A stretch of 55,173 bases of DNA from SAR86 cluster bacterium AG-447-A08. GTDB lineage: Bacteria; Pseudomonadota; Gammaproteobacteria; Magnimaribacterales; Magnimaribacteraceae. How positions within the stretch are numbered: the first letter of the stretch is position 1; each line of letters opens with the position of its first letter. A program made the position numbers and the translations under genes. Below are positions 15,928 to 36,614 of the stretch, piece after piece. The notes beneath the pieces are model-generated. The model had not been told where the DNA came from and did not search any database. It saw only the letters and a program-made list of their open reading frames with translations. The stretch spans positions 1 through 55,173 of the forward strand of contig QCQA01000006.1 in the NCBI GenBank assembly GCA_003212335.1. The letters are read 5' to 3'.

Positions 15928-17127
15928 ATGGAAAGAGTAGAGCAGCTAAGATTATTGAAGGGATTAATAAATCATCTCGATCATAATACAAATATCAATG
16001 CTGGTGGGATAATAAAAACTCCTGCGGATACTTACATTTCAGAGGAACGATTTGATCGTGAGTGGAATACTTTCTTTTTAAACCATCCTCAGATCATTGG
16101 ACTCTCTGGCGATCTGCTCAAACCTAATTCTTTTGTCACGACAGAGGATTTTGGAGTACCTATTCTTGCTGTAAGAGATGATACTGGAGAGTTTAAGGCG
16201 TATGCAAATGTTTGTCCTCACAGAGGGGTGACTATAGAGAGTTCTAAGAAAGGCGAGAAATCAAAGTTTTCATGTCCTTTTCATGGCTGGACCTTTAATA
16301 ATGAAGGTAATCTAATTGGATATCCTAAGAAAGAACAATTCGGTGAAATAGACAAAGACTGCTACGGCTTAAAAGAATTACCTGCTATAGAAAAATTTGG
16401 CTTCTTGTGGGTCCATCCAAAACGTGAGGGGATTATTGATCTTGACGAATTATTAGGCAAAGAACTTCAAGCTGAGTTTGATGCTTGGAATTTCCAAAGT
16501 TTGGTGTTTGCTAATGAGGACCTTTATTTTACAGATATGAATTGGAAATTGGCTATTGATACTTTTGGAGAAACGTATCACTTTTCCGTTTTGCATAAAG
16601 ATTCACTTTTTGAGTCCTTTTACGGTAACTGTCAGATGTTTGATAGCTTCCAACGGAATGGAAGATTGATCTTATGCAAAAGAACTATTGATGAGATGAG
16701 AAAATTACCTGACTCAGAGTGGGATATTTGCGCCGGATCTTTACCTGTTTATTACTTATTTCCCAATATAATTTTTATGCCAACTCAAGAAGGTGCGTTT
16801 CTTGTAAAAGAGTACCCCGCTGAAAATTCACCCCATAAAAGTTATTCAAAAATATCTTTTTATTTCTATCCTCATGTCTTAGAACAATTAAAAGAGTTAG
16901 AGAAGACAGGCATAGATGGTAAACAATTATTAGAAGATCAATACGGGGGTTTTGCATCTGTGATTAGAGATGAGGATTATGTTGCTGCAGCCTCTTCTCA
17001 TAAAGGTTTAAGGTCTGGGAATATTGATTATCTCACTTTTGGTAAAAATGAACCCGCACTTCATCATTATCACAACACTTACAGAGAAGCATTAGGTATG
17101 CAATCTCTTCCTTTAGAGGAAGCTTAA
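15928..17127 (+). CDS. Rieske non-heme iron oxygenase, alpha subunit
   Basis: A 399-residue ring-hydroxylating-type oxygenase. The Rieske [2Fe-2S] ligands are Cys96 and His98 (CPHRG) and Cys116 and His119 (CPFHGW). The mononuclear iron site is ETYHFSVLH, with His218 and His223, and an Asp in the later VIRDED segment is the likely third ligand. Such enzymes insert oxygen into aromatic rings, N-methyl groups or sterol-like substrates. No beta subunit, ferredoxin or reductase is nearby, so this is an alpha-only type with shared redox partners. It heads an operon with an ABC-2 exporter (gap 3 bases), so the product or substrate may be exported. A paralogue lies at 26743. Confidence 0.9.
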   Translation: MERVEQLRLLKGLINHLDHNTNINAGGIIKTPADTYISEERFDREWNTFFLNHPQIIGLSGDLLKPNSFVTTEDFGVPILAVRDDTGEFKAYANVCPHRGVTIESSKKGEKSKFSCPFHGWTFNNEGNLIGYPKKEQFGEIDKDCYGLKELPAIEKFGFLWVHPKREGIIDLDELLGKELQAEFDAWNFQSLVFANEDLYFTDMNWKLAIDTFGETYHFSVLHKDSLFESFYGNCQMFDSFQRNGRLILCKRTIDEMRKLPDSEWDICAGSLPVYYLFPNIIFMPTQEGAFLVKEYPAENSPHKSYSKISFYFYPHVLEQLKELEKTGIDGKQLLEDQYGGFASVIRDEDYVAAASSHKGLRSGNIDYLTFGKNEPALHHYHNTYREALGMQSLPLEEA

Positions 17128-17130
17128 CAA

Positions 17131-17883
17131 ATGGATATTCTTAAGGTCATAGACCTTGAAAAGTCCTATATTGATCCTGATACCAAAGATCACTTTAAAG
17201 CTGTTGATGGGATATCTTTTGAAATAAAAGCTAATCAAATATATGGAATATTGGGGCCAAATGGTGCAGGAAAAACCACAACACTTGAGATGATTGAAGG
17301 TTTAACTGACATAGATGGTGGATTTGCTTATGTGAAAGGTATCAATGTAGCCGAGAAACCTTTCGAAGTGAAAGAAATTATAGGAGTTCAACTTCAATCT
17401 AACGAATACTTTGATTCATTGAGTTTAAAGGAATTATTAATTCTTTTTGGTAAGTTGTATGAGAATGATGTAGATGTAGCTGAGCTTCTTAACAGTGTTA
17501 ACTTAATCGATAAAATTAATGCTAAACCCGAAGAACTTTCTGGAGGCCAGAAACAGCGTTTTTCTATTGCCTGCGCATTAGTTAATAAACCAGATGTTCT
17601 TTTCTTAGATGAGCCGACAACTGGACTTGATCCCCAAGCAAAGCATAACTTATGGAAGCTCATAAGACATTTAAATCAATTGGGCATGAGCATTGTTCTA
17701 ACTACTCACAACATGGAAGAGGCTGAAAATCTATGTCATAAAGTTGCTATCATGGATAAAGGTAAAATAATTACTGAAGGTTCTCCTAACGATTTAATAG
17801 CTAAATTCGATTCAGATAATACTGAGAAGGGTAATCTTGAAAATGTTTTTCTTCATCTCACCGGAAGAGACCTGAGAGACTAA
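17131..17883 (+). CDS. ABC-2 exporter ATP-binding protein
   Basis: A 250-residue ABC ATPase of the multidrug/CcmA-like type. Visible are Walker A GPNGAGKTT, Q-loop VQLQSNEYFDSLS, signature LSGGQKQR, Walker B VLFLDEPTTGLDPQ and the switch His in TTHNMEEAE. It would form the energising subunit for the permease encoded immediately after it with no gap (TAA-ATG). The start ATG comes 3 bases after the Rieske oxygenase stop. Cargo cannot be read from the ATPase; drugs, lipids or small metabolites are common for this type. Confidence 0.92.
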   Translation: MDILKVIDLEKSYIDPDTKDHFKAVDGISFEIKANQIYGILGPNGAGKTTTLEMIEGLTDIDGGFAYVKGINVAEKPFEVKEIIGVQLQSNEYFDSLSLKELLILFGKLYENDVDVAELLNSVNLIDKINAKPEELSGGQKQRFSIACALVNKPDVLFLDEPTTGLDPQAKHNLWKLIRHLNQLGMSIVLTTHNMEEAENLCHKVAIMDKGKIITEGSPNDLIAKFDSDNTEKGNLENVFLHLTGRDLRD

Positions 17884-18972
17884 ATGATTAACTCACTCCA
17901 ATTACACTTAGCTAAGGTCTTTCTGAAGATCTTTTTGAGAAATAGACAAGCAATTCTGTTTAGCTTATTTTTTCCACTCTTATTTATTGGAGCTTTTTCT
18001 TTTTCCGGTGGAGAAAGAGATCCTTTTCTTATTGGTATTAGTGATGGTTCCAAATCTCAATTTTCCTCAGACTTCATTCAGGCCTTGGAAAGAGAGGAGC
18101 TTTTTACCATTTTAGAAGGGAGTTTTGAGGAACTTCAAGCTTCTTTGGAAGAAGGAGAAATCGAGGGCTTTGTTGTGATTCCTGAAAATTTTAAAGACAT
18201 TTCAGATCTAGGAGTTCTTAAATTTTACGTTGACGCATCACAAACAAGACAAGTTACTATCATAAAACAGGCCCTTAACAATTCTCTTGTTTCAGTTGAA
18301 AGAAATATAAGGAATTTATCACCCTTGTTTTCTTTAGAGATTGAAGATGTAAAAGCAAGAAATCAAAGGTATATAGATTTTTTACTGCCAGGTTTATTAG
18401 CTTTTATGATTATGAATTTAAGTATTGCTGGTTCCGGTTTCAATATTGTTGAATACCGAAGGAGAGGCATACTCAAAAGACTATTTGTTACTCCAATTAA
18501 GCCCAAAGACTTCATAGTATCCATTGTACTAGCACGGATGTTGATTGTTCTAACTCAGCTTTCTGTTGTCTTGTCCATCGCTCTCCTTCTATTGGACGTG
18601 AATATAGTAGGAAGTTATTTTTCCTTTTATTTGGTGGTTATATTGGGCACCTTTATTTTTCTATGTATTGGCTTTGCCCTAGGTAGCTTAGCTAAGACTC
18701 AAGAAGGGATAAGGCCTATTGTAGGTTTATTTACTTTTCCTCAGGTTATCTTATCAGGAGTTTTCTTCCCCATTAGTTCTATGCCTGAGATTGTTCAACC
18801 AATTGTTTATTCGTTGCCCTTAAGCTCAGTCGTAGCATCATTAAGAGAGATTGCTAACGATGGCTCTTCTTTCTTTTTATTTAGCAATCCAACGATAGGT
18901 GTATTGCTCTGGGTGATAATCGCATTTGTTATCTCTACAAGATTCTTTATTTGGAAGGAAGTCGCAAAATAG
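17884..18972 (+). CDS. ABC-2 exporter permease
   Basis: A 362-residue inner-membrane protein of the ABC-2 family. It has one N-terminal membrane helix (about 20-40), a periplasmic domain (about 45-160) and then about five C-terminal helices from residue 165. The conserved YRRRGILKRLFVTPIKPKDF and FPQVILSGVFFPISSMP segments are typical of YhfE/DrrB-like permeases. It pairs with the ATPase just upstream. It is the last gene of the Rieske-ATPase-permease operon and converges on the FAD oxidase gene after 13 bases with no visible terminator. Confidence 0.9.
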   Translation: MINSLQLHLAKVFLKIFLRNRQAILFSLFFPLLFIGAFSFSGGERDPFLIGISDGSKSQFSSDFIQALEREELFTILEGSFEELQASLEEGEIEGFVVIPENFKDISDLGVLKFYVDASQTRQVTIIKQALNNSLVSVERNIRNLSPLFSLEIEDVKARNQRYIDFLLPGLLAFMIMNLSIAGSGFNIVEYRRRGILKRLFVTPIKPKDFIVSIVLARMLIVLTQLSVVLSIALLLLDVNIVGSYFSFYLVVILGTFIFLCIGFALGSLAKTQEGIRPIVGLFTFPQVILSGVFFPISSMPEIVQPIVYSLPLSSVVASLREIANDGSSFFLFSNPTIGVLLWVIIAFVISTRFFIWKEVAK

Positions 18973-18985
18973 ATAAGCCTTTAAA

Positions 18986-20362
18986 TCAATCAAATATCTT
19001 GCCTGGATTAAGAATATTCTTTGGATCTAAAGCCTTTTTAAGATTCCTCATTAAGCTAATTTCAGTCTCGGATCTAGATATTTCTAGATAATTTTTTTTC
19101 TCAAGCCCTATACCGTGTTCAGCAGATACGGCGCCTTTAATAGATTTAAGAGGCTCATAGATACAAGCTTCCATGAGTTCAGTAGCTTCTCCTTCATTAG
19201 AGCCAACACCACCAATTATGTGTAGATTCCCGTCTCCAACATGGCCAAAAACAACACATTTATATTCATTCCAATGAGCAGAAAAATTTGCATTCACTTC
19301 TTGAACATATTTTTCCATAAAGGAAATAGGCATGCTTACGTCAAACATTTTTACAGGACCATCTTTGTAATGTTGTTCTACATCATCTCTTATTGACCAT
19401 AATTTGGACCTTTCAGTTTCTGATTGAGGAATAACTGCATCTTTAATAATTCCTCCATCAAGAGCTACCTCTAATAGTTCCTCAAAAAGGGCAGTATCTT
19501 TATCTTGATCCGCTCCTAAAGTTTCTACGATTACGTAATAAGAGTAATTTAATGGCAGAGGAGGGTTGTGATTGGAGTTAGAAGATGTGACAACTTCATA
19601 AAAATTTCTCCACATAACTTCATATGCGCTTAAGTTACCCCCCAAACCTTTATCCATATATTTTAAACACTCTATAACCTCATCAAATGAATCCAAAGCA
19701 AGCAATACGGTATTAATGCTTGTAGGTTTCTCTCTTAATCTGAGCACGGCTCTGGTTACGAAACCTAGGGTTCCTTCTGTGCCTATAAACAGCTGTTTTA
19801 AATCATAACCTGAATTATTCTTTAACATTTTATTCATCGAAGTTATGATCTGCCCGTCAGCTAAAACAGCTTCTAGACCTAGAACAGAATCTCTCATCAT
19901 TCCATACTTAATAACCATATTTCCACCGGCATTTGTAGAAATATTTCCTCCAATAGTGCACGAACCTCTTGCACCTAAGTCAACTGGCAGCATTAAATTA
20001 TATTTTTCAGCTTCCTCTTGTACTTTTTCTAGAGGAACTCCAGCTTGCACGGTTATGGTTCTACCTATTTCGTCTACTTCTTCAATTGATGTCATTCTTT
20101 CAGAAGAAATTGCAATTTGTCCTTTTTGGGTAATGGCTCCTTCAGCCAGACCTGTCAGCCCGCCATGAGGTATTACTTTTTGATCAAATTTATTACAGAT
20201 AGATAATACTTTAGACAACTCTTTTGTATCTTTTGGTCTAATAATGGCATCAGCCTTGATGCCATCGTCAATCCAAATACCAGCCTTCCTATTAAAGACA
20301 TCATCACCGATGATTAATCCTTTTTTTCCAACCACTCCTTCAATTTCTTCAAGAATAGTCAT
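18986..20362 (-). CDS. FAD-linked oxidase, GlcD / D-2-hydroxyacid dehydrogenase type
   Basis: A 458-residue flavoprotein with an N-terminal FAD-binding domain (about 35-215; PHGGLTGLAEGA, GARGSCTIGGNISTNAGG, FIGTEGTLGFVT) and a C-terminal FAD-oxidase domain with FGHVGDGNLHI and SAEHGIGLEKK. This is the vanillyl-alcohol-oxidase superfamily branch with GlcD, D-lactate dehydrogenase and D-2-hydroxyglutarate dehydrogenase. It would oxidise a D-2-hydroxy acid and pass electrons to an acceptor. It is last in a five-gene leftward operon (receptor, cupin, double cupin, amidohydrolase, oxidase), 8 bases after the amidohydrolase. The substrate is probably a fragment of whatever the operon degrades; that is inference. 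Confidence 0.88.
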   Translation of the reverse strand: MTILEEIEGVVGKKGLIIGDDVFNRKAGIWIDDGIKADAIIRPKDTKELSKVLSICNKFDQKVIPHGGLTGLAEGAITQKGQIAISSERMTSIEEVDEIGRTITVQAGVPLEKVQEEAEKYNLMLPVDLGARGSCTIGGNISTNAGGNMVIKYGMMRDSVLGLEAVLADGQIITSMNKMLKNNSGYDLKQLFIGTEGTLGFVTRAVLRLREKPTSINTVLLALDSFDEVIECLKYMDKGLGGNLSAYEVMWRNFYEVVTSSNSNHNPPLPLNYSYYVIVETLGADQDKDTALFEELLEVALDGGIIKDAVIPQSETERSKLWSIRDDVEQHYKDGPVKMFDVSMPISFMEKYVQEVNANFSAHWNEYKCVVFGHVGDGNLHIIGGVGSNEGEATELMEACIYEPLKSIKGAVSAEHGIGLEKKNYLEISRSETEISLMRNLKKALDPKNILNPGKIFD

Positions 20363-20370
20363 ATTGCAAT

Positions 20371-21678
20371 TTATTTTTCTAGAATCTTATTTGAGTAAGC
20401 AGAAATCCTCCATCCGTCGGGATCTTTAAATCTTTTTGGTGCGGGAGTTAGATCGATGTCTTTTCCATTTAGAAAAACATGCTTAATAAGATTTTTATCT
20501 CCTAAAATTGTTACATCCTTTGACGGATCGCCATCTACAACCAACAAGTCAGCAATCTTCCCTTCGGCTATAAGACCAATATCGTCTCTTTTCATTGCTG
20601 ATGCTGCATTTTTTGTTGCGCAAGTTATAGCTTCTAGAGGGGTGAGACCCAGTTTTTCTACAAAAACCTCTAATTCTTTATAATGCCAGTCTCCATAAGG
20701 AGTTACCGAAAAACCACTCTCACTTCCGCATATAAAAGGAACTCCAGCCTCAAAAGCCTTTGTAAATATAGGAACATTATCTTGAATTTCTTTTTCAAAA
20801 ATCTCTTTGTAATCTGTTGAAGCTTCCATCTTTTCAGCGTAATCAATGAGATTAGCTTGAAATGTAAATGTAGGCACAAGAGGAACATTTCGTTCTATCA
20901 TTATCTCGAGGCCTTCCTCATCCATGTAGGTACCATGTAGAATCATGTCAAATCCTGCTAAGAGAGCATCTTTTACACTATCGGCCCCCCTGCAATGTCC
21001 AACGACAGGGATTCCTAATTCATGAGCTGTATCGCACGCTAGCTTGAGTTCATCAAGACTCCACGCCTTGAGCTCTCCTTCAGAAGATTGTCTGGGCACC
21101 ATTCCGGATACATGGATCTTTATCCAATCAACTCCCATTTTAATTTGTCTACGTATTTCGAGGATTATTTCATCTTTACTGGTAACTACAGCACCATATC
21201 CTCTTTTTCCTTCATCAGGTATTAATCTTCCTGCAGTTCCTCCTGCAGAAGTTAAGAGAGCATTACCTCCCACAGCCATTCTGGGCCCGACTATAACTCC
21301 ACTTTCAATCGCATCTCTTAAGTCAACTCCTACGCTGTAGAGACTATCTGCATCAAAAAAGCTAGTTACCCCAGATTGCAGAACTTTCAGTGCATTAGTT
21401 CCAGCTATTATTGCCGCTAGCCCCTCTCTTCTATGAAAAAAGAGTTCGTCATTGGATCTAGGTTCATCGAAACTAATATGACAATGAGCATCAATCAGTC
21501 CAGGCATCACCGTTTTGCCTTTTAAGTCAATAATACTAGCTTCTGTATCTTGGGAGAATGCGTCTTCTTGATGAATTGAATCTATCTTATTCTCTTTTAT
21601 AACTAAATGACCAGAATAGGGTGCTGATCCTGATCCATCAATAATGGAGGCATTCTTTAAAACTACGGAGTTGACCAT
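20371..21678 (-). CDS. Metal-dependent amidohydrolase (prolidase/imidazolonepropionase-like)
   Basis: A 435-residue amidohydrolase-superfamily enzyme with a TIM-barrel metal site. Metal-binding His65 and His67 lie in DAHCH. Lys186 (WIKIH) would be the bridging residue, and His227 (VVGHCRG) and His247 (ILHGTY) follow. The usual metal-binding Asp of GTDSG-type motifs is replaced by Glu319 in CGSESGFS. The C-terminal IGLIAEGKIADLLVVDGDP closes the composite beta domain. Relatives hydrolyse dipeptides, lactams or cyclic amides. There is no signal peptide, so it is probably cytoplasmic. It is fourth in the TonB/cupin operon, 31 bases after the double cupin and with no Shine-Dalgarno. Confidence 0.85.
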   Translation of the reverse strand: MVNSVVLKNASIIDGSGSAPYSGHLVIKENKIDSIHQEDAFSQDTEASIIDLKGKTVMPGLIDAHCHISFDEPRSNDELFFHRREGLAAIIAGTNALKVLQSGVTSFFDADSLYSVGVDLRDAIESGVIVGPRMAVGGNALLTSAGGTAGRLIPDEGKRGYGAVVTSKDEIILEIRRQIKMGVDWIKIHVSGMVPRQSSEGELKAWSLDELKLACDTAHELGIPVVGHCRGADSVKDALLAGFDMILHGTYMDEEGLEIMIERNVPLVPTFTFQANLIDYAEKMEASTDYKEIFEKEIQDNVPIFTKAFEAGVPFICGSESGFSVTPYGDWHYKELEVFVEKLGLTPLEAITCATKNAASAMKRDDIGLIAEGKIADLLVVDGDPSKDVTILGDKNLIKHVFLNGKDIDLTPAPKRFKDPDGWRISAYSNKILEK

Positions 21679-21709
21679 ATATCAATTAGGCCAATTCTAG
21701 ATTATTAAA

Positions 21710-22780
21710 TCAAGAACTTAATGGTGCCCAAGCAAGCAAACTAGAATCATCTGGTCTAGTACTTGGAACTAACTTAATTCCATTTGCTTCGGCCATGCCT
21801 TTGTATTCTACCCAAGAAAGTAAAGACTCTATTTGAGTACCTGGCCCAGAATCAAACATAACTGGACCATATAAATTAGCTGTATAGATCAAGTCTTCAT
21901 CTGTAACTCTTTGAGTGGCATCATGTCTTGCCCCAGCAGGTTCGTAAAACCATATTCCTGGTCCATAACCTTCAGGTGGTCCCGCTCTAACACCAAGTTG
22001 TCCTTGCAAGACTAAGAAATCACTTGCGCCAACATGTGTATGTGGATCAGCTACACCATTGTGTCTGACTATTAAGGACACATAACCTGTTTCTTGGCTT
22101 ACCCTCAGAATTTTAAGACCAACATCTTCCATGCCAGGTAAAACTAACCAAGGTACTTGTTTTGTGTCAACAAAGTGAGGATGAGTTACTTCTGAGTGCT
22201 TAGTAATGTCTGCATCATCATTAACTAGCTTGCCGGCATTTCCACTAGCAATTGCTAAGGGCGCTCCATTTCCATTGTACTGTTCACCTTCTATTTCCAT
22301 ACAGGCTTCAAGAGAGTTAGGAACAAGTATAATTTTATTATCTTTAGCCATTTGCATAACATCAAGCGCAGTTAATAGACTATCTAGCGATCCGTCTTCT
22401 TTCAGGAAGGCAACCCCGCTATAAAAGTTAGCCAAAACTTCCGTTTCTTCTATCGCCAAGAAAGAATTCACTCTTGAATTTGCGCAAACAAAACCCCAAG
22501 TTCCAGGATTTAGGATGCTTTTAGAACCTTCTTGTTCATATTCTGCCTTTCCAGACAAAATAAGCATATCCATTCCACCTAGATAAACTGAAGCAGGAAG
22601 AGAACTACCTGCATCCAGCTTAAAAATCAGACTAAAAATACCACTTTCACCACTTGCTCTCGCTGGCTTAATAGACATACCAGGTGCATTAGGAATAGGT
22701 ATCCATGGTAACTTGTTTGTATCTATACAATCACCAACACCTGAAGGGTTGTATTCTGGATTTGCTGCTGCTTCGGACAT
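21710..22780 (-). CDS. Double-cupin protein with one degenerate half
   Basis: A 356-residue protein made of two homologous cupin halves: about residues 20-160 and 204-345 share DT(N/K)xxPWxxxP starts and matching patterns. The second half has metal ligands: His247 and His249 (DPHTHVG), Asp254, and His286 (GARHD). In the first half the same positions read LPASVYLGG and ANSRVN, so no metal ligand remains. The family resembles ChrR-like cupins and acetylacetone- or dihydroxyacetophenone-cleaving dioxygenases, so C-C bond cleavage by the second half is possible. A strong Shine-Dalgarno (TAGGAG) precedes the ATG. It is third in the TonB operon. Confidence 0.8.
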   Translation of the reverse strand: MSEAAANPEYNPSGVGDCIDTNKLPWIPIPNAPGMSIKPARASGESGIFSLIFKLDAGSSLPASVYLGGMDMLILSGKAEYEQEGSKSILNPGTWGFVCANSRVNSFLAIEETEVLANFYSGVAFLKEDGSLDSLLTALDVMQMAKDNKIILVPNSLEACMEIEGEQYNGNGAPLAIASGNAGKLVNDDADITKHSEVTHPHFVDTKQVPWLVLPGMEDVGLKILRVSQETGYVSLIVRHNGVADPHTHVGASDFLVLQGQLGVRAGPPEGYGPGIWFYEPAGARHDATQRVTDEDLIYTANLYGPVMFDSGPGTQIESLLSWVEYKGMAEANGIKLVPSTRPDDSSLLAWAPLSS

Positions 22781-22797
22781 TTTTTTCTCCTAAAGTT

Positions 22798-23238
22798 TTA
22801 TGATGCTTCCCAAGCTCCCTGAGCATCTTCCCAGGTCACTAAAGCAATTGTATTACCTTCTTCGTCTATGAAATTAAGTGGACCTAAGAAGGTCATGTAG
22901 AATTCACTATCTTCTAAGAAGTGAGTATGGTCATGCCTTGCATTACAAGGTTCGTATCCATAACCAGGAGCGATGGCAGTAGAACCTCCCTCATCATGTC
23001 CACCTCTTACTTCCATATGACCCTTTGTTAAAAAATATTCACCAGGGCCTATATGTATATGCGCATTAAATGAAGATCCTTTTGGGCAGTCAAAAATTGC
23101 TGCCCAAGAACCCATTTCAGGAGAGACATTTAATAACTTCCATGTAATACCACCTTCAGATAATGCATCAGGGAAAGGTTTCCATTCATTGTCATTTATT
23201 TGGACATATCTCCCTTTTAATTGATCTTGATGCTCCAT
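22798..23238 (-). CDS. Single-domain cupin, ChrR-like dioxygenase candidate
   Basis: A 146-residue single cupin with an intact metal site: His60 and His62 (NAHIHIGPGE), Glu67, and His102 in NARHDHTH. It is similar in order to the active half of the double cupin downstream (both have GAxxHD/NARHD and an xGPLNFID/xGPVMFD strand), so the two genes probably arose from one ancestor. It could be an iron dioxygenase acting on a diketone or phenacyl compound, or a subunit partner of the double cupin. GGGGGAG, 5 bases before the ATG, is a strong ribosome-binding site. It lies 12 bases after the TonB receptor. Confidence 0.8.
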   Translation of the reverse strand: MEHQDQLKGRYVQINDNEWKPFPDALSEGGITWKLLNVSPEMGSWAAIFDCPKGSSFNAHIHIGPGEYFLTKGHMEVRGGHDEGGSTAIAPGYGYEPCNARHDHTHFLEDSEFYMTFLGPLNFIDEEGNTIALVTWEDAQGAWEAS

Positions 23239-23250
23239 ATGGCTCCCCCT

Positions 23251-25476
23251 TTATTCAAAGTAGTAAGTTAAACTAGCTGAATACAATCTAGGTTGACCCA
23301 AAGTACCGATAATTACATTACCACTACCATTATCATCAAGTGTGTAAAGGTTTGATAAATATTGCACATCAACATAGTAGGCTTCATCAGTTATATTCTC
23401 GATATTGAACATAAGCTCCCAGTTATCCTTTGACCAACCACTTTGTAAGTTCATAATTGTGAAACTAGGATTCTGGACAGGATCCCATGCTTGCAACCCT
23501 TTAAAGCTTCCGTTGTAGCTAACTTGGAAATCGAAAGAAAAATTCGTTCCATTCGATAGTGGTCGTAAGTAATTGGTAGCTAAAGTCGCACCACTATTGG
23601 GCACAACTGGAGGCCTCTCCCCAGACATATCAACACCTGAAATATTAGTTCCACTATCCCATTCGGCGTCTATAAACCCTGCAGAACCTGAGATTGTCAA
23701 ATAATCAGATGTTTTAATCGAGAATTCAGCCTCAATACCTTGTTGAGTACTATCTCCTGCATTAAATATTCCTTCAATTAGACCACCTCCATCTGGATTA
23801 GGTATTTGGAATTCAATCTGCCTATCTGAGTAATCAATATAAAATACTGCAAATCCAGCAGTACCTCTTCCGTCTGCAATTCTTCCTTTCCAACCGAATT
23901 CATATTGTTCTGCTTCCTCTGATCTAAAGTCATAAAGAGTTCCAGCTTTACTCGGAAGGTCCACACCGTTAAATCCACCTGGCTCCATACCTATAGAAGC
24001 AGAGGCATAGAATATTCCATTATCAAGATTCTTTGTTAATGATAGTTTTGGAAGGAATTCAGTATCATTTGCTGATCCGTATGAACCAGTATCAAGATTT
24101 GCAGAATCATTTTCCCATTTATCTATCCTTGCACCAAATCCAAGATCCCAATCTGCATTGAGAGGATATGTTAGGTTTACAAAGGCTGATTGATGCATTT
24201 TGTCCCTGAGCCTGTACTCAAAAGGTATTTCCAATGTATCCATTTCTTGACTTGCAGTTGGTACTTGTCCAGCCCAAACACCACCTCCAGTAGGAGATCC
24301 AACAGCTAAACCTAGCGCTCCAGTTATATTACCGTCTGCATCTACACGAGCATCCCTCCATAACTGCAGAGAATTCATTTCCTCTTCAAATTTAGAGTAA
24401 TAAACGCCAGCAATCCACTGTAAGTCTGAATCATCAGTAGAAGTAAATCTAATTTCTTGGGTAGTGACTTGCATATCTTCTGGCCTGATAAAATCTAAAA
24501 TAAATTCTGGCATCAGATCGACGTCCGTGAATCTTTCACTATAGGTATCTGTATAAGAGGTAAGTGAAGTTATATCATAACCATCTTGTTCAAAAGTTAA
24601 TTCAAGACTATATCCGTCTGTCTCTCTTTGATGATAAGGATTAATTCCTGTATCTAAAACATTAGGATGTGTTAAAGGTAAAGATAATTCACGAGTCCAC
24701 ATATTGACCGGACCATCATATTTATTATGACGTGCAGTGAAATATAGAGAGGCAATATCACTTAGGGAACCCGCTAAAGAGAGCCTCCATCCTTCTTCGG
24801 TGTAAGCGCCTGCATTCTCATCTGCGTTACTTCTGAGTCCATTTAATCTCGGAGTTCTGGGATTGGTTAGATACCCTTCATCCTCTCGATCAAAAGCAAA
24901 AAATCTCATTGCCCAATCATCATTTAAAGCAATATTAGTGCTTACTTCTAAATCTTCAATGGCTTGGCCACCAGCAAGGTATTTAATTTTTGTATTTGTC
25001 GCACCTAATTCAGGTCTTTTTGAAACATATTTGACGGCGCCACCAATGTTACTTCCTCCGAATAGCACACCTTGAGGGCCTTTCAAAACTTCTATTCTTT
25101 CAAGATCTCCAAATCTAGACGAAGCATCAGAGAAAAGCTGTACATCATCAATATAGAATCCAACACCTTGTGTATTTCCAAAAGAACCTAATCCTCGAAT
25201 TGATACGTTAGGAAAACCATCAGCTCTCATTGAAAGGTTTAAATTAGGAATCAGGAAACCGATATCATCAAGAGTTTTGATGTTTTGCGTTTCGATATTA
25301 GAACCAGAAATAGCAGTAATAGATTCAGGTATATCAAGAAGACTTTCTTCCCTTTTTCTTGCTGTAACTACAATCTCTTCAATTCCTGACGCTGATTCAA
25401 CAGATTCATCAGATGTTAGTGGAAATGTGATTAGCCCTAAAGCAGGCAATAACGACAGAATTTTATTTAGACTCAT
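23251..25476 (-). CDS. TonB-dependent outer-membrane receptor
   Basis: A 741-residue outer-membrane receptor. It has a signal peptide (about 1-23), a TonB-box-like EIVVTARKREE (about 33-43), a plug domain (about 45-160; SIRGLGSFGN, IEVLKGPQGVLFGG, GAVKYVSKRP) and a 22-strand barrel ending SLTYYFE with a terminal aromatic-rich strand. The RKREESLLDIPESITAISG type is common in marine and sphingomonad receptors for organic compounds as well as siderophores. No Fur box is seen upstream, so an iron role is not indicated. It heads a five-gene catabolic operon and has a very strong Shine-Dalgarno (GGGGAGGAATT). It likely imports the compound that the operon degrades. Confidence 0.93.
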   Translation of the reverse strand: MSLNKILSLLPALGLITFPLTSDESVESASGIEEIVVTARKREESLLDIPESITAISGSNIETQNIKTLDDIGFLIPNLNLSMRADGFPNVSIRGLGSFGNTQGVGFYIDDVQLFSDASSRFGDLERIEVLKGPQGVLFGGSNIGGAVKYVSKRPELGATNTKIKYLAGGQAIEDLEVSTNIALNDDWAMRFFAFDREDEGYLTNPRTPRLNGLRSNADENAGAYTEEGWRLSLAGSLSDIASLYFTARHNKYDGPVNMWTRELSLPLTHPNVLDTGINPYHQRETDGYSLELTFEQDGYDITSLTSYTDTYSERFTDVDLMPEFILDFIRPEDMQVTTQEIRFTSTDDSDLQWIAGVYYSKFEEEMNSLQLWRDARVDADGNITGALGLAVGSPTGGGVWAGQVPTASQEMDTLEIPFEYRLRDKMHQSAFVNLTYPLNADWDLGFGARIDKWENDSANLDTGSYGSANDTEFLPKLSLTKNLDNGIFYASASIGMEPGGFNGVDLPSKAGTLYDFRSEEAEQYEFGWKGRIADGRGTAGFAVFYIDYSDRQIEFQIPNPDGGGLIEGIFNAGDSTQQGIEAEFSIKTSDYLTISGSAGFIDAEWDSGTNISGVDMSGERPPVVPNSGATLATNYLRPLSNGTNFSFDFQVSYNGSFKGLQAWDPVQNPSFTIMNLQSGWSKDNWELMFNIENITDEAYYVDVQYLSNLYTLDDNGSGNVIIGTLGQPRLYSASLTYYFE

Positions 25477-25639
25477 AATTCCTCCCCAAAGTTATTTTTA
25501 GTCAAATTCTTTTCTCAATTTATCAGTTCTTTTGATGTTTTGTAAACAAAAATCGTGCACTAAATTGGGGCTTGAGATTGATTAAGTTAATACTTTTACA
25601 ATATGATAATTAATCTGATCATACGTGGGAGATATTTAA
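25477..25639. promoter_or_regulatory. Divergent control region of the catabolic island
   Basis: This 163-base gap must hold both promoters: leftward for the TonB/cupin operon and rightward for gloA-NTF2-Rieske-amidohydrolase. A perfect inverted repeat TTTTGT-AA-ACAAAA (25538-25551) sits near its middle. On the plus strand TTGAGA (25572-25577) and TACAAT (25597-25602) are a possible promoter, though the 19-base spacer is long, and GGGAG (25627-25631) is the gloA ribosome-binding site. On the minus strand GGGGAGGAATT precedes the receptor ATG. The repeat is a candidate operator for shared control. Confidence 0.5.
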
Positions 25640-26152
25640 ATGGATGAACTAACCAAAACTAAGGCCATAGGCACTGAAGAATTTGTATTTAATCAAACTA
25701 TGCTAAGAATCAAAGATCCTGAGGTTTCTCTAGATTTTTATGTAAATCAACTTGGAATGACTCTTGTAAAGCAATTAGATTTTCCTGAAATGTCTTTCAC
25801 TCTTTATTTTTTGGGTTATTTAAGAGATTTTGATGAAGAGGTTCCTGAAGATCCTGTACAAAGGGCTGAATATGCTTTTAGTCAAAAAGCTATGTTGGAA
25901 TTAACACATAATTGGGGCACTGAAAGCGATGCTAATTTTTCCTATCATGATGGTAATTCTGATCCCAGAGGTTTTGGCCATATTGGTATTACAGTTCCAG
26001 ACGTATATGCCGCATGTAAACAATTTGAGGAGTACGGTATAGAATTTGTTAAGAAACCTGATGATGGCAATATGAAAGGCTTGGCTTTTATAAAAGATCC
26101 TGACGGATATTGGATAGAAATATTATCTGCAAAAGCTTCTTCGCAATTTTAA
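25640..26152 (+). CDS. gloA: Glyoxalase I (lactoylglutathione lyase)
   Basis: A 170-residue glyoxalase I of the Zn type. Metal ligands line up with the human-type enzyme: Gln19 (FNQTMLRI), Glu87 (LELTHNWG), His114 (FGHIGITV) and Glu160 (YWIEIL). The fold has two beta-alpha-beta-beta-beta repeats, and the length is normal for the 170-180-residue class. The reaction turns the hemithioacetal of a 2-oxoaldehyde and glutathione into S-2-hydroxyacylglutathione. It heads a rightward operon with an NTF2-like protein and a Rieske oxygenase, so it may act on an oxoaldehyde formed in that pathway rather than only on methylglyoxal. That is inference. Confidence 0.92.
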
Positions 26153-26161
26153 ATTAGAAAA

Positions 26162-26716
26162 ATGGATAACGATATTTTAAAGCGTCTAGAGGTTCTTGAA
26201 TCTAAAGATGCGATTAGGGAACTAGTCTCAAACTATGCTGAATCATGCGATAGACAAGATTTAAAAGCACTTGAAAAGATATTTACTGAAGATGCTGAAT
26301 TTGATTCACCCAATGGCTCTTTAAAAAGCAAAGGCAGACAATCTATTCTAGATATGTATCACGAGGTTTTTCTTTCAAGAGGACCATCTTTTCATTGGAC
26401 TCATGATGTAAGCGTAACTATAAATTCTGATGATGCAGATTTGGCAGAAGGTACAGTCTATAGCCATGCTGAAACAACTAGAGATGGTGTTGCAAGTTTA
26501 GCTGCAATGCGCTACGACGATATTTATTCAAAAAGAGAAGGGAGTTGGAAGTTTTTAAAACGAACAATCAATTTCTTTTATTATGTAAAAACAGAAGATT
26601 ATTTAGATAGTTTAAATGACCCCATGAGGGTTAACATGGGGGAGGGCAAGATTGAGGCAGACATACCAGAATCGATACCTTCTTGGGTAGAATTTCAAAG
26701 AAAAAATAAAAGTTGA
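26162..26716 (+). CDS. SnoaL/NTF2-like protein
   Basis: A 184-residue cone-shaped NTF2/SnoaL-like domain. It begins with a helix and the family pattern IRELVSNYAESCDRQDLKALEKIFTEDAEF (residues about 19-48, abbreviated), then SKGRQSILDMYHEVF, FHWTHDVSVTINSDDADLAEGTV and AAMRYDDIYSKREGSWKFLKR. Relatives include dehydratases, isomerases and small ring-hydroxylating beta subunits of the same fold. A His-Asp pair in WTHDV is present, as in scytalone dehydratase-like enzymes, but catalysis is not assured. It lies between gloA (9-base gap) and the Rieske oxygenase, whose beta subunit it could replace; real beta subunits are similar in size. Confidence 0.75.
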   Translation: MDNDILKRLEVLESKDAIRELVSNYAESCDRQDLKALEKIFTEDAEFDSPNGSLKSKGRQSILDMYHEVFLSRGPSFHWTHDVSVTINSDDADLAEGTVYSHAETTRDGVASLAAMRYDDIYSKREGSWKFLKRTINFFYYVKTEDYLDSLNDPMRVNMGEGKIEADIPESIPSWVEFQRKNKS

Positions 26717-26742
26717 TAAAAAATAGTACCCATTCCCATGAG

Positions 26743-27888
26743 ATGATTTCTCTTGTTAAAAGAGCTCTTGATCATTACCAAAACAAGACAACTGATCAGG
26801 CCTCAGATGTTATGTCTAATTCAATAGATGCGTATGTTGATGAAGATAGATATCAAAAAGAAGTAGATAGAATTTTTAAAAGACTTCCCCTTGCTTTGTG
26901 TCTAAGTAGCGAGCTTCCTAAAGACAATACTCATAGAGCGATGAATGTTATTGATACTCCTGTCCTCATAACTAGAGGTAAAGATAGTAAGGTAAGGGCA
27001 TTTCTAAATATATGTAGACATAGAGGTTCCAAGATCTGTGAAGAAGGAACTGGTAAAAAAAGAAACTTTGTATGCCCATATCATGCTTGGACTTATGACC
27101 ATGAAGGTAAGCTAATTGGAATGTATGGAGAAAAAACTTTCGGTGATATTAAAAAAGAGGACTTTGGCTTAATTGAATTAATGTGTTCTGAGCGTTCTGG
27201 ATTAGTATGGGTTATGTTGAATCCTGAAGAAAATTTTAATATCGATAAATGGCTTGGAGATTTTGCCCCTGAATTGGATACCTTAAATTTAGAAAATTGG
27301 CATATCCATGAGCAAAGGGAAATTGATGGACCGGGTTGGAAAGTTGCTTTAGATGGTTATCTTGAGGCCTATCATCATAATCAACTACACGGAGATACTG
27401 TCGGCAAACATACAGTTGGTAATTTACTTGTACTAGATACTTATGGACCTCATCAAAGACTAACCTTTGGCAGAAAAACTTTAAAAGACCTCATTGATAA
27501 GCCTGAAACAGAATGGAAATCACCTCAAGAAAATATAAGATTAATCCATTCAGGTTTTCCAAACCTCTCAATTTCAGGTGTTTTAGGTGATCATTGTTTG
27601 GTAAGCCAAATATTTCCCACATCATCCCCTAACAGGACGATAACAAGACAAACGATCTTATCTGCAAAAAAACCTGAAACAGATAAACAATTACAGAATA
27701 CTAACGAGTTCAGCGAAATGGTTAGACAGGCCGTAGTAGACGAAGATTACAAAATAGGTTTGGAAATTCAATCTAATATATCTCATATGGGCTCGAACGA
27801 TTTTATTTATGGAAAGAATGAACCAGCTGTTCAGAATTACCACTCGTGGATAAAAAGTTTTATGTCAAAAGACGGAACTGAATGGTAA
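26743..27888 (+). CDS. Rieske non-heme iron oxygenase, alpha subunit (second copy)
   Basis: A ring-hydroxylating-type oxygenase of 381 residues from the ATG at 26743. A longer frame from TTG at 26713 would overlap the preceding stop (TTGA) and add 10 residues; the paralogue at 15928 supports a start near the ATG. Rieske ligands are Cys91 and His93 (CRHRG) and Cys111 and His114 (CPYHAW). The mononuclear iron motif is EAYHHNQLH. Its N-terminal region (ISLVKRALDHY) lines up with the first Rieske protein, so the two are distant paralogues. No ferredoxin or reductase is nearby. Context (TonB receptor, cupins, glyoxalase, amidohydrolases) suggests attack on a ring or demethylation. Confidence 0.88.
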   Translation: MISLVKRALDHYQNKTTDQASDVMSNSIDAYVDEDRYQKEVDRIFKRLPLALCLSSELPKDNTHRAMNVIDTPVLITRGKDSKVRAFLNICRHRGSKICEEGTGKKRNFVCPYHAWTYDHEGKLIGMYGEKTFGDIKKEDFGLIELMCSERSGLVWVMLNPEENFNIDKWLGDFAPELDTLNLENWHIHEQREIDGPGWKVALDGYLEAYHHNQLHGDTVGKHTVGNLLVLDTYGPHQRLTFGRKTLKDLIDKPETEWKSPQENIRLIHSGFPNLSISGVLGDHCLVSQIFPTSSPNRTITRQTILSAKKPETDKQLQNTNEFSEMVRQAVVDEDYKIGLEIQSNISHMGSNDFIYGKNEPAVQNYHSWIKSFMSKDGTEW

Positions 27889-27897
27889 ATAAACATT

Positions 27898-28869
27898 ATG
27901 GACGTAATTGATATCCACGCTCATATAGTTTTTGAAGAAACTCTGAATTTCCTTAAAAAAGAAGGCCCTGAAATTGGTGGAGATGAAAAAAATCCTTGGT
28001 TTAGAGTTGGAGAATATAAATTAGAGGGCGTCAGGTACCGCAATACGCCCTTCATGGACATAAATCTAAGACTCGATGCAATGGAATCTCTTGGAATTGA
28101 TTTTCAGGTCTTATCTCCAAATCCTATTACTTATTTCCATTTCATAGAAAAGCAATCGGCTGTTGATTATTGTCAACTCCACAACGACACAATGGCAGAG
28201 ATTGTTCATAAACATCCTTCCCTAGGAGGGTTTGCTTCCTTGCCAATGCAAGATCCTCATGAAGCATCTAAGGAGTTACAAAGATGTGTGAATGACCTTG
28301 GCTTATTAGGAGCTTATATAGGCACTGATTTTCCATTGGGTTTCGCAGATGAAGCACTCGATATGCTTTATAAGACCTTTGTTGAATTGGATGTTCCTCT
28401 GTTTATTCATCCAGCTCCTCAAGGCATAAATGGTCCTTACTCAGATAAGAGATTAGACGATTATAGTTTGGATTTAACTGTGGGTTTTGCTAATGACGAG
28501 ACAGTTGCTCTAGGGAATATAATTTTTGGAGGGGTGCTGCATAAAAATCCTGATTTAGATATATGTATTAGTCATGGTGGAGGAAATATCGCCTTTCTTG
28601 CCGGGAGAATGGCATTAGCTGCTGAGAACAGACATACCTCTCCAGAATGGATAAGAGAGAAGGGAGAATTTCTTAAACAATTAAAGTTAGTATGGTTTGA
28701 TAACCATGTTCATCAAGACAAATCGTTAGATTTACTAGATAGCTTGGTTGGACCAGGCAGGATGGTTTTAGGTACAAATTTTTTGGGGTGGGATCAGCCT
28801 GATAGAAACTCCCTAAAAGAATGTCCTCATTATTTAGCAGATAACGCTAGGCAATTGCTTAGGCTCTAA
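27898..28869 (+). CDS. ACMSD-type amidohydrolase with Asn in place of the metal-site Asp
   Basis: A 323-residue amidohydrolase-2 family protein related to 2-amino-3-carboxymuconate semialdehyde decarboxylase and 5-carboxyvanillate or gamma-resorcylate decarboxylases. Metal-site residues are His7 and His9 (DIHAH), His171 (LFIHPAP) and His226 (ISHGGG). The expected Asp of the LGTDYP-type motif is Asn294 (LGTNFLGWD). It would act as a C-C bond lyase (decarboxylase or diketone hydrolase) on a ring-cleavage product, though the Asn could weaken or change catalysis. It is last in the gloA operon, 9 bases after the Rieske gene, and ends 1 base before the converging SDR. Confidence 0.85.
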   Translation: MDVIDIHAHIVFEETLNFLKKEGPEIGGDEKNPWFRVGEYKLEGVRYRNTPFMDINLRLDAMESLGIDFQVLSPNPITYFHFIEKQSAVDYCQLHNDTMAEIVHKHPSLGGFASLPMQDPHEASKELQRCVNDLGLLGAYIGTDFPLGFADEALDMLYKTFVELDVPLFIHPAPQGINGPYSDKRLDDYSLDLTVGFANDETVALGNIIFGGVLHKNPDLDICISHGGGNIAFLAGRMALAAENRHTSPEWIREKGEFLKQLKLVWFDNHVHQDKSLDLLDSLVGPGRMVLGTNFLGWDQPDRNSLKECPHYLADNARQLLRL

Positions 28870-28870
28870 A

Positions 28871-29620
28871 TTAGCTCCTTCCTATATTTGCAAGAACGCT
28901 GTTCATAACGCCACCGTCAACTAGAATATTTTCACCGTGCACGTAGGAAGAGTCATCAGATAATAAAAACATCACCACCTTAGCAATATCATTTGCAGTA
29001 CCAATTCTTTGCATCGGAACCATCGCTTCTCTTTTCTTTCTCTCAGAATCATCACGATAATGTGGTGCAGACATACCAGCATCAATAAAACCAGGAGAAA
29101 CTGCATTTACTCGAATACCTAGCTTTCCCCATTCAAGAGACATCTGTTCACTTAACATCACTAACCCTGCCTTTGCTGCTGCATACGCGCCTGAATGAAT
29201 AGCGGGATGTTTGCCCCCGCTAATTGAACTGATGTTGACGATATTTCCTTCTCCTTTTTCTTTCATCAATTTGGCTACGGCACAACCAACAATAAAACTG
29301 CCTAAGAGGTTGACCTCAATGACATCTTTGAAATCCTTGATTTCTTGCTCTAAAAGGCTACCAAATCTGACAATTCCTGCACAATTAACTAGTGCTGAAG
29401 GTGTTTCTCCAAATTTTTTAAGAGTTTCGGCTACAGATTTTTCATCAGTAACGTCTGTCGGCAATGCTACTGAATTAGGAATCTTGGATTCAAATTCTTC
29501 AAGCACTTCTTTATTGAGGTCTAATAATCCAACTTTATATCCTTTTTGACTTGCTTGAATCGCAATTTCAGATCCGATTCCTCCACTAGCCCCTGTTATC
29601 AAAATACTTTTTGCCATCAT
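28871..29620 (-). CDS. Short-chain dehydrogenase/reductase, FabG-like
   Basis: A 249-residue classical SDR. The cofactor-binding glycine motif is TGASGGIG (9-16), followed by NCAG (79-82). The active-site residues are Ser132-133, Tyr146 and Lys150 (YAAAK). The C-terminal HGENILVDGGVMNS is typical. It uses NAD(P)H to oxidise or reduce a hydroxyl or keto group. Two ATG codons are adjacent; the second (29617) is better spaced from the AAGGTG ribosome-binding site. It faces the catabolic gene set and may belong to it functionally. An inverted repeat (29630-29652) lies just upstream. Confidence 0.9.
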   Translation of the reverse strand: MMAKSILITGASGGIGSEIAIQASQKGYKVGLLDLNKEVLEEFESKIPNSVALPTDVTDEKSVAETLKKFGETPSALVNCAGIVRFGSLLEQEIKDFKDVIEVNLLGSFIVGCAVAKLMKEKGEGNIVNISSISGGKHPAIHSGAYAAAKAGLVMLSEQMSLEWGKLGIRVNAVSPGFIDAGMSAPHYRDDSERKKREAMVPMQRIGTANDIAKVVMFLLSDDSSYVHGENILVDGGVMNSVLANIGRS

Positions 29621-34895: not shown

Positions 34896-36611
34896 ATGAA
34901 AAAAGTAGTTTCATTAGTCATTTTTACAATCCTCTCCTTCCCATTTTTTTCAAATGATTTACCTATTGTTGAATACGGCTCAATCAATCATCCTGTCATT
35001 GATGATGGGGGAATGGTTGTTTCCCAAAGAATGATAGCAAGCGAGGTCGGAGCTCAGATTCTTGCACAGGGCGGTAATGCAGTTGATGCTGCAGTGGCAA
35101 CAGGCTTAGCTTTAGCAGTAGTGCTACCCCGAGCAGGAAACTTAGGCGGCGGCGGCTTCATGGTTATCTACTTAAAAGAAGAAGATAAAACCATTGCAAT
35201 TGACTATAGAGAAAAGGCCCCCTCAGCAGCAACGAGGGATCTCTTTTTAGATGAAAACGGTGATTACGACAGAAAAAAGGCTCAATTCTCACTTCTTTCT
35301 GCCGGTGTTCCAGGATCGGTAGCAGGATTTCATCATGCTCTCACTAGATATGGAACGCTTACTTGGGAAGAGGTTCTACAACCTGCCATAAAATTAGCCG
35401 AAGATGGGTTTGTTATACCTCATGATTTAGCGAATACCCTGGCATCTAAAAGATACAGAGAAAGACTTTCTGCTGATCCAGCTGCAGCTAAAGTATTCTT
35501 TAAGAAAAATAATGAGATCTATTCTGCAGGTGAAATTCTTGTACAAAAAGATCTTGCCTGGACTCTGAAACAACTCAGTCAAAATGGACCAGAAGCTTTT
35601 TATTCTGGCGACATAGCTAAGCTAATAGTTAAAGAAATGGAGAGAAACGGCGGTCTCATAACTTTACAAGATCTTAAAAATTACAATGTAGCGGAAAGAC
35701 AGCCTCTAGAAGGTAGCTATAAAGGATATAAGGTTGTTTCGATGCCTCCGAGCAGTTCAGGCGGAACGCATTTGATACAAATGTTAAATATGCTTGAAGA
35801 CTTTCCTATAAAAGAAATGGGTTTTGGAAGTGCAGATACTATTCATATTCTCGCAGAAGTTATGAAAAGAGCTTATGCAGATAGAAGCAAATATTTAGGG
35901 GATAGTGACTTTTACAAAGTACCTTCGAGTCTTGTCAGTAAAAAATATGCAAAAGCTCTGAATAAAGAGATTTCTTTAGACCAAGTCACACCGTCTAATG
36001 AAGTATCTCCAGGTAACCCTTACCCATATGAAAGTCCCGATACAACTCATTTTTCGGTTATGGATAGTTATGGCAACGCAGTTTCAAACACATACACTCT
36101 AAATTTCTCTTACGGATCAGGGAAGATGATTCCAGGTACCGGAATGTTGATCAATAATGAAATGGATGATTTCTCTTCTAAACCTGGAACTCCCAATGGT
36201 TATGGTCTTTTAGGATCTGAGGCCAACGCTATTGAAGGCAATAAAAGACCACTATCCTCGATGACTCCTACTATTATTTTTAAAGATCAAAAGCCCTATA
36301 TGGTTTTCGGCAGTCCCGGAGGGAGCAGAATTATAACTACAGTATTACAAGTAGCTCTAAACGTGATGGAGCATGAAATGAACATAGCGCAAGCGGTTCA
36401 TAGCCCGAGAATGCATCATCAGTGGTTGCCCGAAGTTCTAATGTTAGAAAAAGGATTTGGTTCCGATACAGAAAAACTTTTGGAGAATAAAGGATATAAG
36501 CTCTATCAGTCATCAACAATGGGAAGTGTGCAAGCCATTGTCAAAGAAGGGAACTATTTCTATGGTTCTGCAGATCCTAGGCGACCTAGTGCAGGCGTGG
36601 CAACACCTTAA
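34896..36611 (+). CDS. ggt: Gamma-glutamyltranspeptidase, first copy
   Basis: A 571-residue periplasmic enzyme with a signal peptide (about 1-19). Gamma-glutamyltranspeptidases are made as one chain and cut themselves before a catalytic Thr. Here PDTTHFSV places it at Thr383, the first residue of the small subunit. Other family stretches are GGNAVDAAVATGLALAV, RAGNLGGGGFM, VVSMPPSSSGG and SPGGSRI. It cleaves glutathione and other gamma-glutamyl compounds. It is followed by a second copy after 3 bases. Confidence 0.95.
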   Translation: MKKVVSLVIFTILSFPFFSNDLPIVEYGSINHPVIDDGGMVVSQRMIASEVGAQILAQGGNAVDAAVATGLALAVVLPRAGNLGGGGFMVIYLKEEDKTIAIDYREKAPSAATRDLFLDENGDYDRKKAQFSLLSAGVPGSVAGFHHALTRYGTLTWEEVLQPAIKLAEDGFVIPHDLANTLASKRYRERLSADPAAAKVFFKKNNEIYSAGEILVQKDLAWTLKQLSQNGPEAFYSGDIAKLIVKEMERNGGLITLQDLKNYNVAERQPLEGSYKGYKVVSMPPSSSGGTHLIQMLNMLEDFPIKEMGFGSADTIHILAEVMKRAYADRSKYLGDSDFYKVPSSLVSKKYAKALNKEISLDQVTPSNEVSPGNPYPYESPDTTHFSVMDSYGNAVSNTYTLNFSYGSGKMIPGTGMLINNEMDDFSSKPGTPNGYGLLGSEANAIEGNKRPLSSMTPTIIFKDQKPYMVFGSPGGSRIITTVLQVALNVMEHEMNIAQAVHSPRMHHQWLPEVLMLEKGFGSDTEKLLENKGYKLYQSSTMGSVQAIVKEGNYFYGSADPRRPSAGVATP

Positions 36612-36614
36612 AGT

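Follow-up and report, generated by a model that had tools for sequence, protein, structure and literature searches.

A gene island of one SAR86 family with Dke1-like cupins, a glyoxalase and a Rieske oxygenase: a candidate catabolic locus for a beta-diketone-type compound

What purpose is served by ten genes arranged as two divergent operons and one convergent gene in SAR86, an abundant ocean clade long resistant to cultivation (PMC11582366)? The genes occupy positions 18986-29620 of a contig of 55,173 bases, analysed whole and called the window below, which belongs to a genome of 1.54 Mb (31 contigs, estimated 88% complete). The left operon encodes an FAD-dependent oxidase (FADox), an amidohydrolase (AmHyd1), a double and a small cupin (dCupin and sCupin) and a TonB-dependent receptor. 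The right one encodes a glyoxalase I (GlxI), an NTF2-like protein, a Rieske oxygenase alpha subunit (Rieske_A) and a second amidohydrolase (AmHyd2), with a short-chain dehydrogenase (SDR) gene facing its end. We propose, at a probability of roughly 0.55, that one SAR86 family uses this island to catabolize a natural compound carrying, or converted to, a beta-diketone. A preceding interpretation of the DNA letters (the sequence-only reading) had known of no described pathway with this set, and none turned up in our searches of open-licence papers.

The small cupin gives the clearest lead to the chemistry. It matches structural entry 3bal ('acetylacetone-cleaving enzyme') with 205.3 bits (E 6.4e-60, residues 9-145 of 146) and structural entry 2o1q with 227 bits. 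The metal ligands of Dke1 are His62, His64 and His104, and its hydrophilic active-site residues include Tyr70, Arg80, Glu98 and Thr107 (PMC4019311). All seven are matched in sCupin, by H60, H62, H102, Y68, R78, E96 and T105; Y68 is constant in the six island orthologues and the remaining six residues in the whole ten-row alignment. Judged by its sequence, sCupin is a member of the Dke1 (acetylacetone-cleaving) family with a complete catalytic set, and it plausibly cleaves a C-C bond. A regulatory role of the cupins, as in the anti-sigma factor ChrR, was rejected in view of this catalytic set and of the lack of any sigma-factor family among the Pfam matches of the ten genes.

Cleavage of a C-C bond by a cupin had been predicted beforehand as part of a chemistry of undescribed type. 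The first half of that prediction gains plausibility from the Dke1 family, whereas the second does not stand, because a route from Dke1 through methylglyoxal to glyoxalase is published for acetylacetone: Dke1 yields methylglyoxal and acetate, and glyoxalase converts methylglyoxal to lactate (PMC4019311, PMC7226712). Diketones were already among the candidate substrates of the sequence-only reading, which fits the family membership of sCupin. Acetylacetone is described as not a naturally occurring metabolite (PMC7226712), and the natural substrate of the island is therefore presumably another compound.

GlxI is the second pillar of the proposal. The label is genuine by the NCBIfam cut-off: the protein scores 198.4 bits against TIGR00068 (lactoylglutathione lyase; cut-off 120) and 237.6 bits against a solved lactoylglutathione lyase, and its residues Q19, E87, H114 and E160, which we take from the human enzyme to be the metal ligands, are invariant in 12 of 12 sequences. 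Its distribution follows that of the cupins. A search of 151 genomes of the order for sCupin or dCupin (E 0.001) returned 12 carriers, all in one family and spread over six genera. Among the 35 genomes of this SAR86 family (all taken as covered by the order-wide search), 12 encode a GlxI above the cut-off, exactly the 12 with island cupins, with a second copy in G115 (G numbers are our handles for genomes, C and L numbers those for contigs and loci). A different, short GlxI (103-114 bits) is present in 12 of the 35, namely in 11 genomes without the island and in G017, which has it besides the island enzyme (103 bits for the short form). The GlxI above the cut-off thus goes with the island, and may also do housekeeping there.

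The right operon is tied to the cupins in the same way. AmHyd2 matches were found in 11 of the 151 genomes, nine strong (68-100% identity) and two weak at 27% (G115 and G041), and all nine strong ones fall among the 12 carriers. GlxI diverges from the TonB receptor gene in ten carriers and from an sCupin-FADox pair in the other two (G017 and G115). Across the recurring arrangements, proteins are 64-98% identical to those of the window, the exceptions being the receptor (49-97%) and FADox (55-84%). The arrangement is more than chance, because it recurs in other genomes, and the two operons do co-occur in relatives; had they never done so, the sequence-only reading would have been refuted by its own test.

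FADox supplies the type of enzyme that a last step would need. Its scores are 316 bits against 3pm9 (a putative oxidoreductase), 273 against human D-2-hydroxyglutarate dehydrogenase (6lpn) and 148 against D-lactate dehydrogenase (8jdc); the alignments to the solved D-2-hydroxyglutarate and D-lactate dehydrogenases cover residues 39-456 and 37-456 of 458. By these alignments FADox is placed in the D-2-hydroxyglutarate/D-lactate dehydrogenase group. It stays below every named NCBIfam cut-off (282 bits against 568 for glcD, glycolate oxidase; other models, those of D-lactate and D-2-hydroxyglutarate dehydrogenase among them, lower). GloB above the cut-off is encoded in 18 of the 35 family genomes, including that of the window, where it lies on another contig. 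Genes for a predicted route of the acetylacetone type are thus all present in this genome, with sCupin, GlxI and FADox in the island.

We hypothesize the following sequence of events. The TonB receptor would import the compound and, going by enzyme families, the Rieske oxygenase, the NTF2-like protein and both amidohydrolases would prepare a beta-diketone from it. Next, an Fe(II) cupin of the Dke1 kind would use O2 to split a C-C bond, with a carboxylic acid and a 2-oxoaldehyde (methylglyoxal, for example) as products; this cleavage may fall to sCupin and to the second domain of dCupin, as alternative or successive enzymes. GlxI would convert the glutathione adduct of the oxoaldehyde to a D-2-hydroxyacyl-glutathione, GloB would release the D-2-hydroxyacid, and FADox would oxidize it to a 2-oxoacid.

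The layout of the island is summarized below. The ten genes, their order and strands and the gap between the operons are as the sequence-only reading gave them, and each family label is backed by a Pfam match above the curated cut-off. Gaps within the operons are 8, 31, 17 and 12 bp on the left and 9, -4 and 9 bp on the right.

Table 1. Features of the island in the window, with the number of the 12 carrier genomes in which each gene was found (identity above 38%, within the stretches covered).
Feature	Position	Strand	Family or role	Carriers of 12
FADox	18986-20362	-	FAD_binding_4/FAD-oxidase_C	8 (beside island)
AmHyd1	20371-21678	-	Amidohydro_1	10
dCupin (double cupin)	21710-22780	-	Cupin_7 twice	10
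sCupin (small cupin)	22798-23238	-	Cupin_7; Dke1 family	6
TonB-dependent outer-membrane receptor	23251-25476	-	TonB plug and barrel	12 (one fragment)
Divergent intergenic region, 163 bp	25477-25639	.	presumed promoters of both operons	
GlxI	25640-26152	+	Glyoxalase; lactoylglutathione lyase, human type	12
NTF2-like protein	26162-26716	+	SnoaL_4	10
Rieske_A, Rieske non-haem iron oxygenase alpha subunit	26713-27888	+	Rieske and Ring_hydroxyl_A	9
AmHyd2, ACMSD-like	27898-28869	+	Amidohydro_2	9
SDR, convergent with right operon	28871-29620	-	short-chain dehydrogenase family	9

The second cupin is more distant from Dke1. The name 'double cupin' is right in that dCupin has two Cupin_7 domains, whereas metal histidines are present in the second domain only. 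The protein scores 22.8 bits against 3bal and 34.6 bits against 2o1q, which makes it a distant Cupin_7 relative of Dke1 and not a close one. In the second domain, H247, H249, H286, R265, E280 and T289 match the Dke1 catalytic set, and none of the 14 aligned proteins, from gamma- and alphaproteobacteria, departs from these three His, Arg, Glu and Thr. Phe255 stands at the position of Tyr70; in Dke1 itself the change of Tyr70 to Phe is reported to slow the rate 3-fold (PMC4019311). The structural model is a predicted bicupin (mean predicted local distance difference test score, pLDDT, 79), and its Foldseek search adds little, returning generic bicupins with low TM-scores. A recent transfer of dCupin between genera, considered for the 97% protein identity of G000 and G118, is not supported by the nucleotide identity of 83.8%. 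A further, divergent single-cupin paralogue (31% identical to sCupin) is encoded outside the window at G000:C17:10826-11203 (L057) and has relatives in G001, G097 and G115.

The sequence-only reading had treated the genes as a single set. Co-inheritance is borne out, AmHyd2 being found only with cupins (9/9), whereas one indivisible pathway is not, as the set is modular. Every carrier has sCupin or dCupin. Among the ten genomes in which GlxI faces the TonB gene, seven have a cupin gene after TonB on the same contig; the receptor is cut by a contig end in G085 and G001, and G097 is rearranged, with dCupin on another contig and AmHyd1 and sCupin beyond SDR. The right operon is only partly visible in G109, where the contig ends inside the NTF2-like gene. 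In its nine carriers, SDR either adjoins AmHyd2 or is separated from it by another SDR gene. Neither G017 nor G115 gave a match to Rieske_A, dCupin or AmHyd2, save for the weak AmHyd2 match of G115, and G017 has a 54-residue NTF2-like remnant after GlxI. Modules thus occur separately: the GlxI/Dke1-like pair is found without the Rieske part in G017, G115 and Tistrella, and the Rieske/dCupin pair alone in nine alphaproteobacterial genomes.

The receptor varies together with the small cupin. In the receptor tree, one fully supported branch separates five sequences from genomes with sCupin and six from genomes without it. When the tree is built from six other island genes of nine genomes, G021, which lacks sCupin and has the other receptor type, groups with full support with G000 and G033, where sCupin is present; G000 and G021 are 80-87% identical in the eight other genes common to both and 49% in the receptor. 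Within a genus, then, there was at least one joint change of the receptor and sCupin, and this ties sCupin to what the receptor imports; a single event of this kind is weak evidence.

Outside SAR86, the Dke1-glyoxalase linkage recurs on two plasmids. A protein search of plasmid records (E 1e-20) gave four sCupin relatives, and the surroundings of two were examined. On pTM2 of Tistrella mobilis, gloA (66% identical to GlxI) diverges from a Dke1 relative (66% identical to sCupin) that is followed by a gene annotated as NTF2-family and an AraC-type regulator. On pSYMBR3459 of Paraburkholderia phenoliruptrix, the Dke1 relative (64%) is annotated as an acetylacetone-cleaving protein and has two gloB genes, a VOC-family protein, an AraC-type regulator and a D-lactate dehydrogenase less than 8 kb away. 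A Burkholderia xenovorans homologue of Dke1 is reported to cleave acetylacetone (PMC4019311). In a class-level sample of 369 genomes, an sCupin relative was detected at E 1e-25 in four, that of the window included, and a full-length dCupin only in the genome of the window, with partial matches of at most 36 bits in eight others.

Marine alphaproteobacteria (PS1 clade, OCS116, Rhodobiaceae, Hyphomicrobiales; seven of 15 loci) encode relatives of dCupin with 65-67% identity. In the family of one of these, an orthologue of Rieske_A, scoring 585-682 bits where the next paralogue reaches no more than 374, is encoded in 18 of 18 genomes searched, and dCupin in 16 of 18. At such frequencies the co-occurrence of the two is uninformative and was withdrawn as evidence after this control; GlxI, present in 16 of 18 and not tied to dCupin, is likewise uninformative. 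The informative part is therefore adjacency: the two genes are neighbours on the same strand, Rieske first, in nine of the 18 genomes, and in a tenth (G527) a dCupin remnant follows the Rieske gene. They lie on different contigs in six genomes, and dCupin is missing in two. Where the contig shows it, the adjacent pairs are preceded by a CarD-like gene and mostly followed by YgjP-like and aldo-keto reductase genes, with no island around them. Given the relatedness of these genomes, the adjacency may go back to a single event. The Rieske_A-dCupin association is seen in two classes, and in SAR86 the genes sit in facing operons.

We tentatively suggest, at somewhat below even odds, that an undescribed two-step unit for oxidative C-C cleavage of an abundant natural metabolite consists of a Rieske oxygenase and a Dke1-like double cupin. 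It would be common to SAR86 and the PS1-like alphaproteobacterial family, and SAR86 would add to it the uptake, another cupin for cleavage and a glyoxalase branch. One alphaproteobacterial genome with both dCupin and Rieske_A (G151) also encodes a 76%-identical sCupin at G151:C51:13827-14255 (L123:9821-10282), which suggests a transfer between classes; its gene neighbours an OsmC-like one, and no relative of GlxI was found within the 20 kb examined.

The remaining enzymes are less easily assigned. In Rieske_A, C101, H103, C121, H124, H221 and H226, representing the Rieske CxH...CxxH motif and the catalytic-domain histidines, are invariant in nine of nine sequences. In G025 (L047:10959-12124) a frame break divides the Rieske_A match into two pieces, owing either to an assembly error or to loss of function as a pseudogene. 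At window 15928-18972 (+), another Rieske oxygenase gene (Rieske_B) precedes the two genes of an ABC-type transporter, for the ATPase (17131-17883) and the ABC2 membrane protein (17884-18972); this stretch ends 13 bp from FADox. The same Rieske_B/ABC order is found in G021, and Rieske_B lies near the island in G065. On the other side, window 34896-38318 (+) has two tandem gamma-glutamyltranspeptidase genes, preceded by a gene of the beta-lactamase family; the first of the two is visible in G021 at the edge of the stretch covered.

AmHyd2 aligns with ACMSD over about 290 residues. In ACMSD the Asp of the GTD motif has a metal role and four histidines belong to the site. All four histidines align in AmHyd2, whereas the GTD-motif Asp is Asn in nine of nine sequences, including that of the window; the label 'ACMSD-like' thus holds as a family relation and not as an activity, and a plain ACMSD reaction should not be assumed. 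AmHyd1 is nearest to the peptidase-like amidohydrolases of the Xaa-Pro dipeptidase/arginine carboxypeptidase type, and the substrate may accordingly contain an amide.

The NTF2-like protein retains Asp30 and His78 in ten of ten sequences, 48 residues apart as are the dyad residues D25 and H73 of LinA (PMC3507683). Its low-confidence model (mean pLDDT 49) resembles first the NTF2-like lyases of the LinA, bile-acid 7-alpha dehydratase and scytalone dehydratase group, with bile-acid 7-alpha dehydratase and LinA closest, and the protein is possibly a dehydratase or isomerase of the LinA kind. Rieske beta subunits appear at ranks 18 and 43 among the best 50 structural matches of this weak model; a beta-subunit role is not favoured, the bile-acid dehydratase and LinA ranking first.

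Around the divergent intergenic region, four promoter-like sites in 25300-25800, compared with 2.1 in shuffles (standard deviation 1.3), are not clearly above chance. No conserved operator emerged: an alignment of the 12 intergenic regions has no invariant column. The best common 8-mer is found in seven of the 12 regions (maximum eight in 100 shuffles of two-base blocks) and one 11-mer in four (shuffled maximum three), the regions of G118, G025 and G085 being near-copies of one another. No AraC-type regulator is encoded among the ten island genes of the window. Such regulators are found near Dke1-like genes in G017 (L055:6053-7069), Tistrella (L127:8809-9789) and Paraburkholderia (L128:12932-13891).

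Several observations weigh against a beta-diketone island. Only six of the 12 carriers have the small cupin, and only eight have FADox beside the island; in G118 an MFS transporter gene takes the place of FADox after AmHyd1, where G025 and G085 carry a frame of equal length. The ten island genes include none for a Rieske reductase. The one GlxI of the window genome to exceed the cut-off is that of the island, which may stand in for the housekeeping enzyme, and the 12/12 match of GlxI and cupins, lying within one family, represents few independent events. Beyond SAR86, the Paraburkholderia D-lactate dehydrogenase (26% to FADox over part of the chain) and VOC protein (35% to GlxI) are distant relatives, and in three other gammaproteobacterial genomes no glyoxalase relative was found in the 19.5-20 kb examined around the Dke1 relative. 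In the reverse-direction experiments described in PMC7226712, strains with the Dke1 relatives of Tistrella and P. xenovorans made no detectable acetylacetone.

Some of these points would suit another explanation, which we consider unlikely, though the most serious competitor: two unrelated operons share a promoter region, with GlxI detoxifying methylglyoxal as a housekeeping enzyme and the other genes forming a cluster for ring or steroid oxidation in which the cupins yield no oxoaldehyde. The lack of another GlxI above the cut-off in the window genome agrees with this, as do the different short GlxI in 11 of the 23 family genomes without the island and the untied GlxI of the alphaproteobacterial family. 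What it does not lead one to expect is the divergent GlxI beside a Dke1 relative in G017, G115 and Tistrella, or the second, short GlxI that G017 keeps. The cupins might also be of the 2,4'-dihydroxyacetophenone-dioxygenase type, or act on another hydroxyketone, and cleave an aryl ketone supplied by the Rieske enzyme to an aromatic acid and formate, the product of such cleavage. The Tistrella relative is indeed annotated '2,4'-dihydroxyacetophenone dioxygenase family protein', and the Rieske enzyme and the ACMSD-like protein suggest ring chemistry. We nevertheless hold it to be quite improbable: Dke1 is the only one of the three solved matches with a named activity, its whole second-shell set is conserved, and GlxI and the D-2-hydroxyacid dehydrogenase would be left unexplained.

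Still less credence is given to iron acquisition, in which a ferric siderophore would be imported and its ligand dismantled by the oxygenases. The best NCBIfam match of the receptor is indeed TonB-siderophore (163 bits, below the cut-off of 223.5), and siderophores have been raised as a possible carbon source of SAR86 (PMC11582366). Against this, the ten genes include no ferric reductase or inner-membrane siderophore transporter, and neither the glyoxalase nor the Dke1-like enzyme has an evident role in siderophore use. We retain the beta-diketone island as the preferred reading.

Among iron dioxygenases with a three-His site, Dke1 is a studied case, yet its known substrate, acetylacetone, is described as not occurring naturally (PMC7226712). 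The island offers a relative of this enzyme a natural setting, with predicted uptake, oxidation, cleavage and removal of a toxic oxoaldehyde at one locus, and, if true, the Rieske-dCupin unit would be a natural ocean role for Dke1-type chemistry. Sequences highly similar to Dke1 were already noticed in Sargasso Sea DNA (PMC4019311). In a 2024 comparison of SAR86 genomes, genes labelled catE/gloA are near-universal and read as catechol dioxygenases; the words 'glyoxalase' and 'cupin' are absent from its main text (PMC11582366). Two cupins, one Rieske enzyme and a defined product class provide a testable handle on part of the SAR86 diet.

Set beside known systems, individual parts of the island are familiar. 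Rieske_A resembles Rieske ring hydroxylases and N-demethylases (GbcA, carnitine monooxygenase, biphenyl dioxygenase) in the Rieske and catalytic domains of the alpha subunit; it differs in scoring at most 130 bits against any NCBIfam model, far under the cut-offs (GbcA 670), and in the missing reductase gene. AmHyd2 shares the Amidohydro_2 fold family and the four histidines with the ACMSD/gamma-resorcylate decarboxylase group and differs in its Asn for Asp. The regions of pTM2 and pSYMBR3459 are like the island in linking a Dke1 relative to glyoxalase genes, a gene annotated as NTF2-family and an AraC-type regulator; unlike it, the 16.4-kb stretches have no annotated TonB receptor, Rieske or amidohydrolase gene, and no double-cupin relative was found in them. 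A further parallel is acetylacetone degradation by Dke1 in Acinetobacter johnsonii (EC 1.13.11.50): the SAR86 island has a small cupin of that family with the published catalytic residues, next to it a gene for the glyoxalase step of the acetylacetone route, and a D-2-hydroxyacid dehydrogenase-like gene in the cupin operon. It differs in also having a TonB receptor, a Rieske oxygenase, an NTF2-like protein, two amidohydrolases, an SDR and the double cupin.

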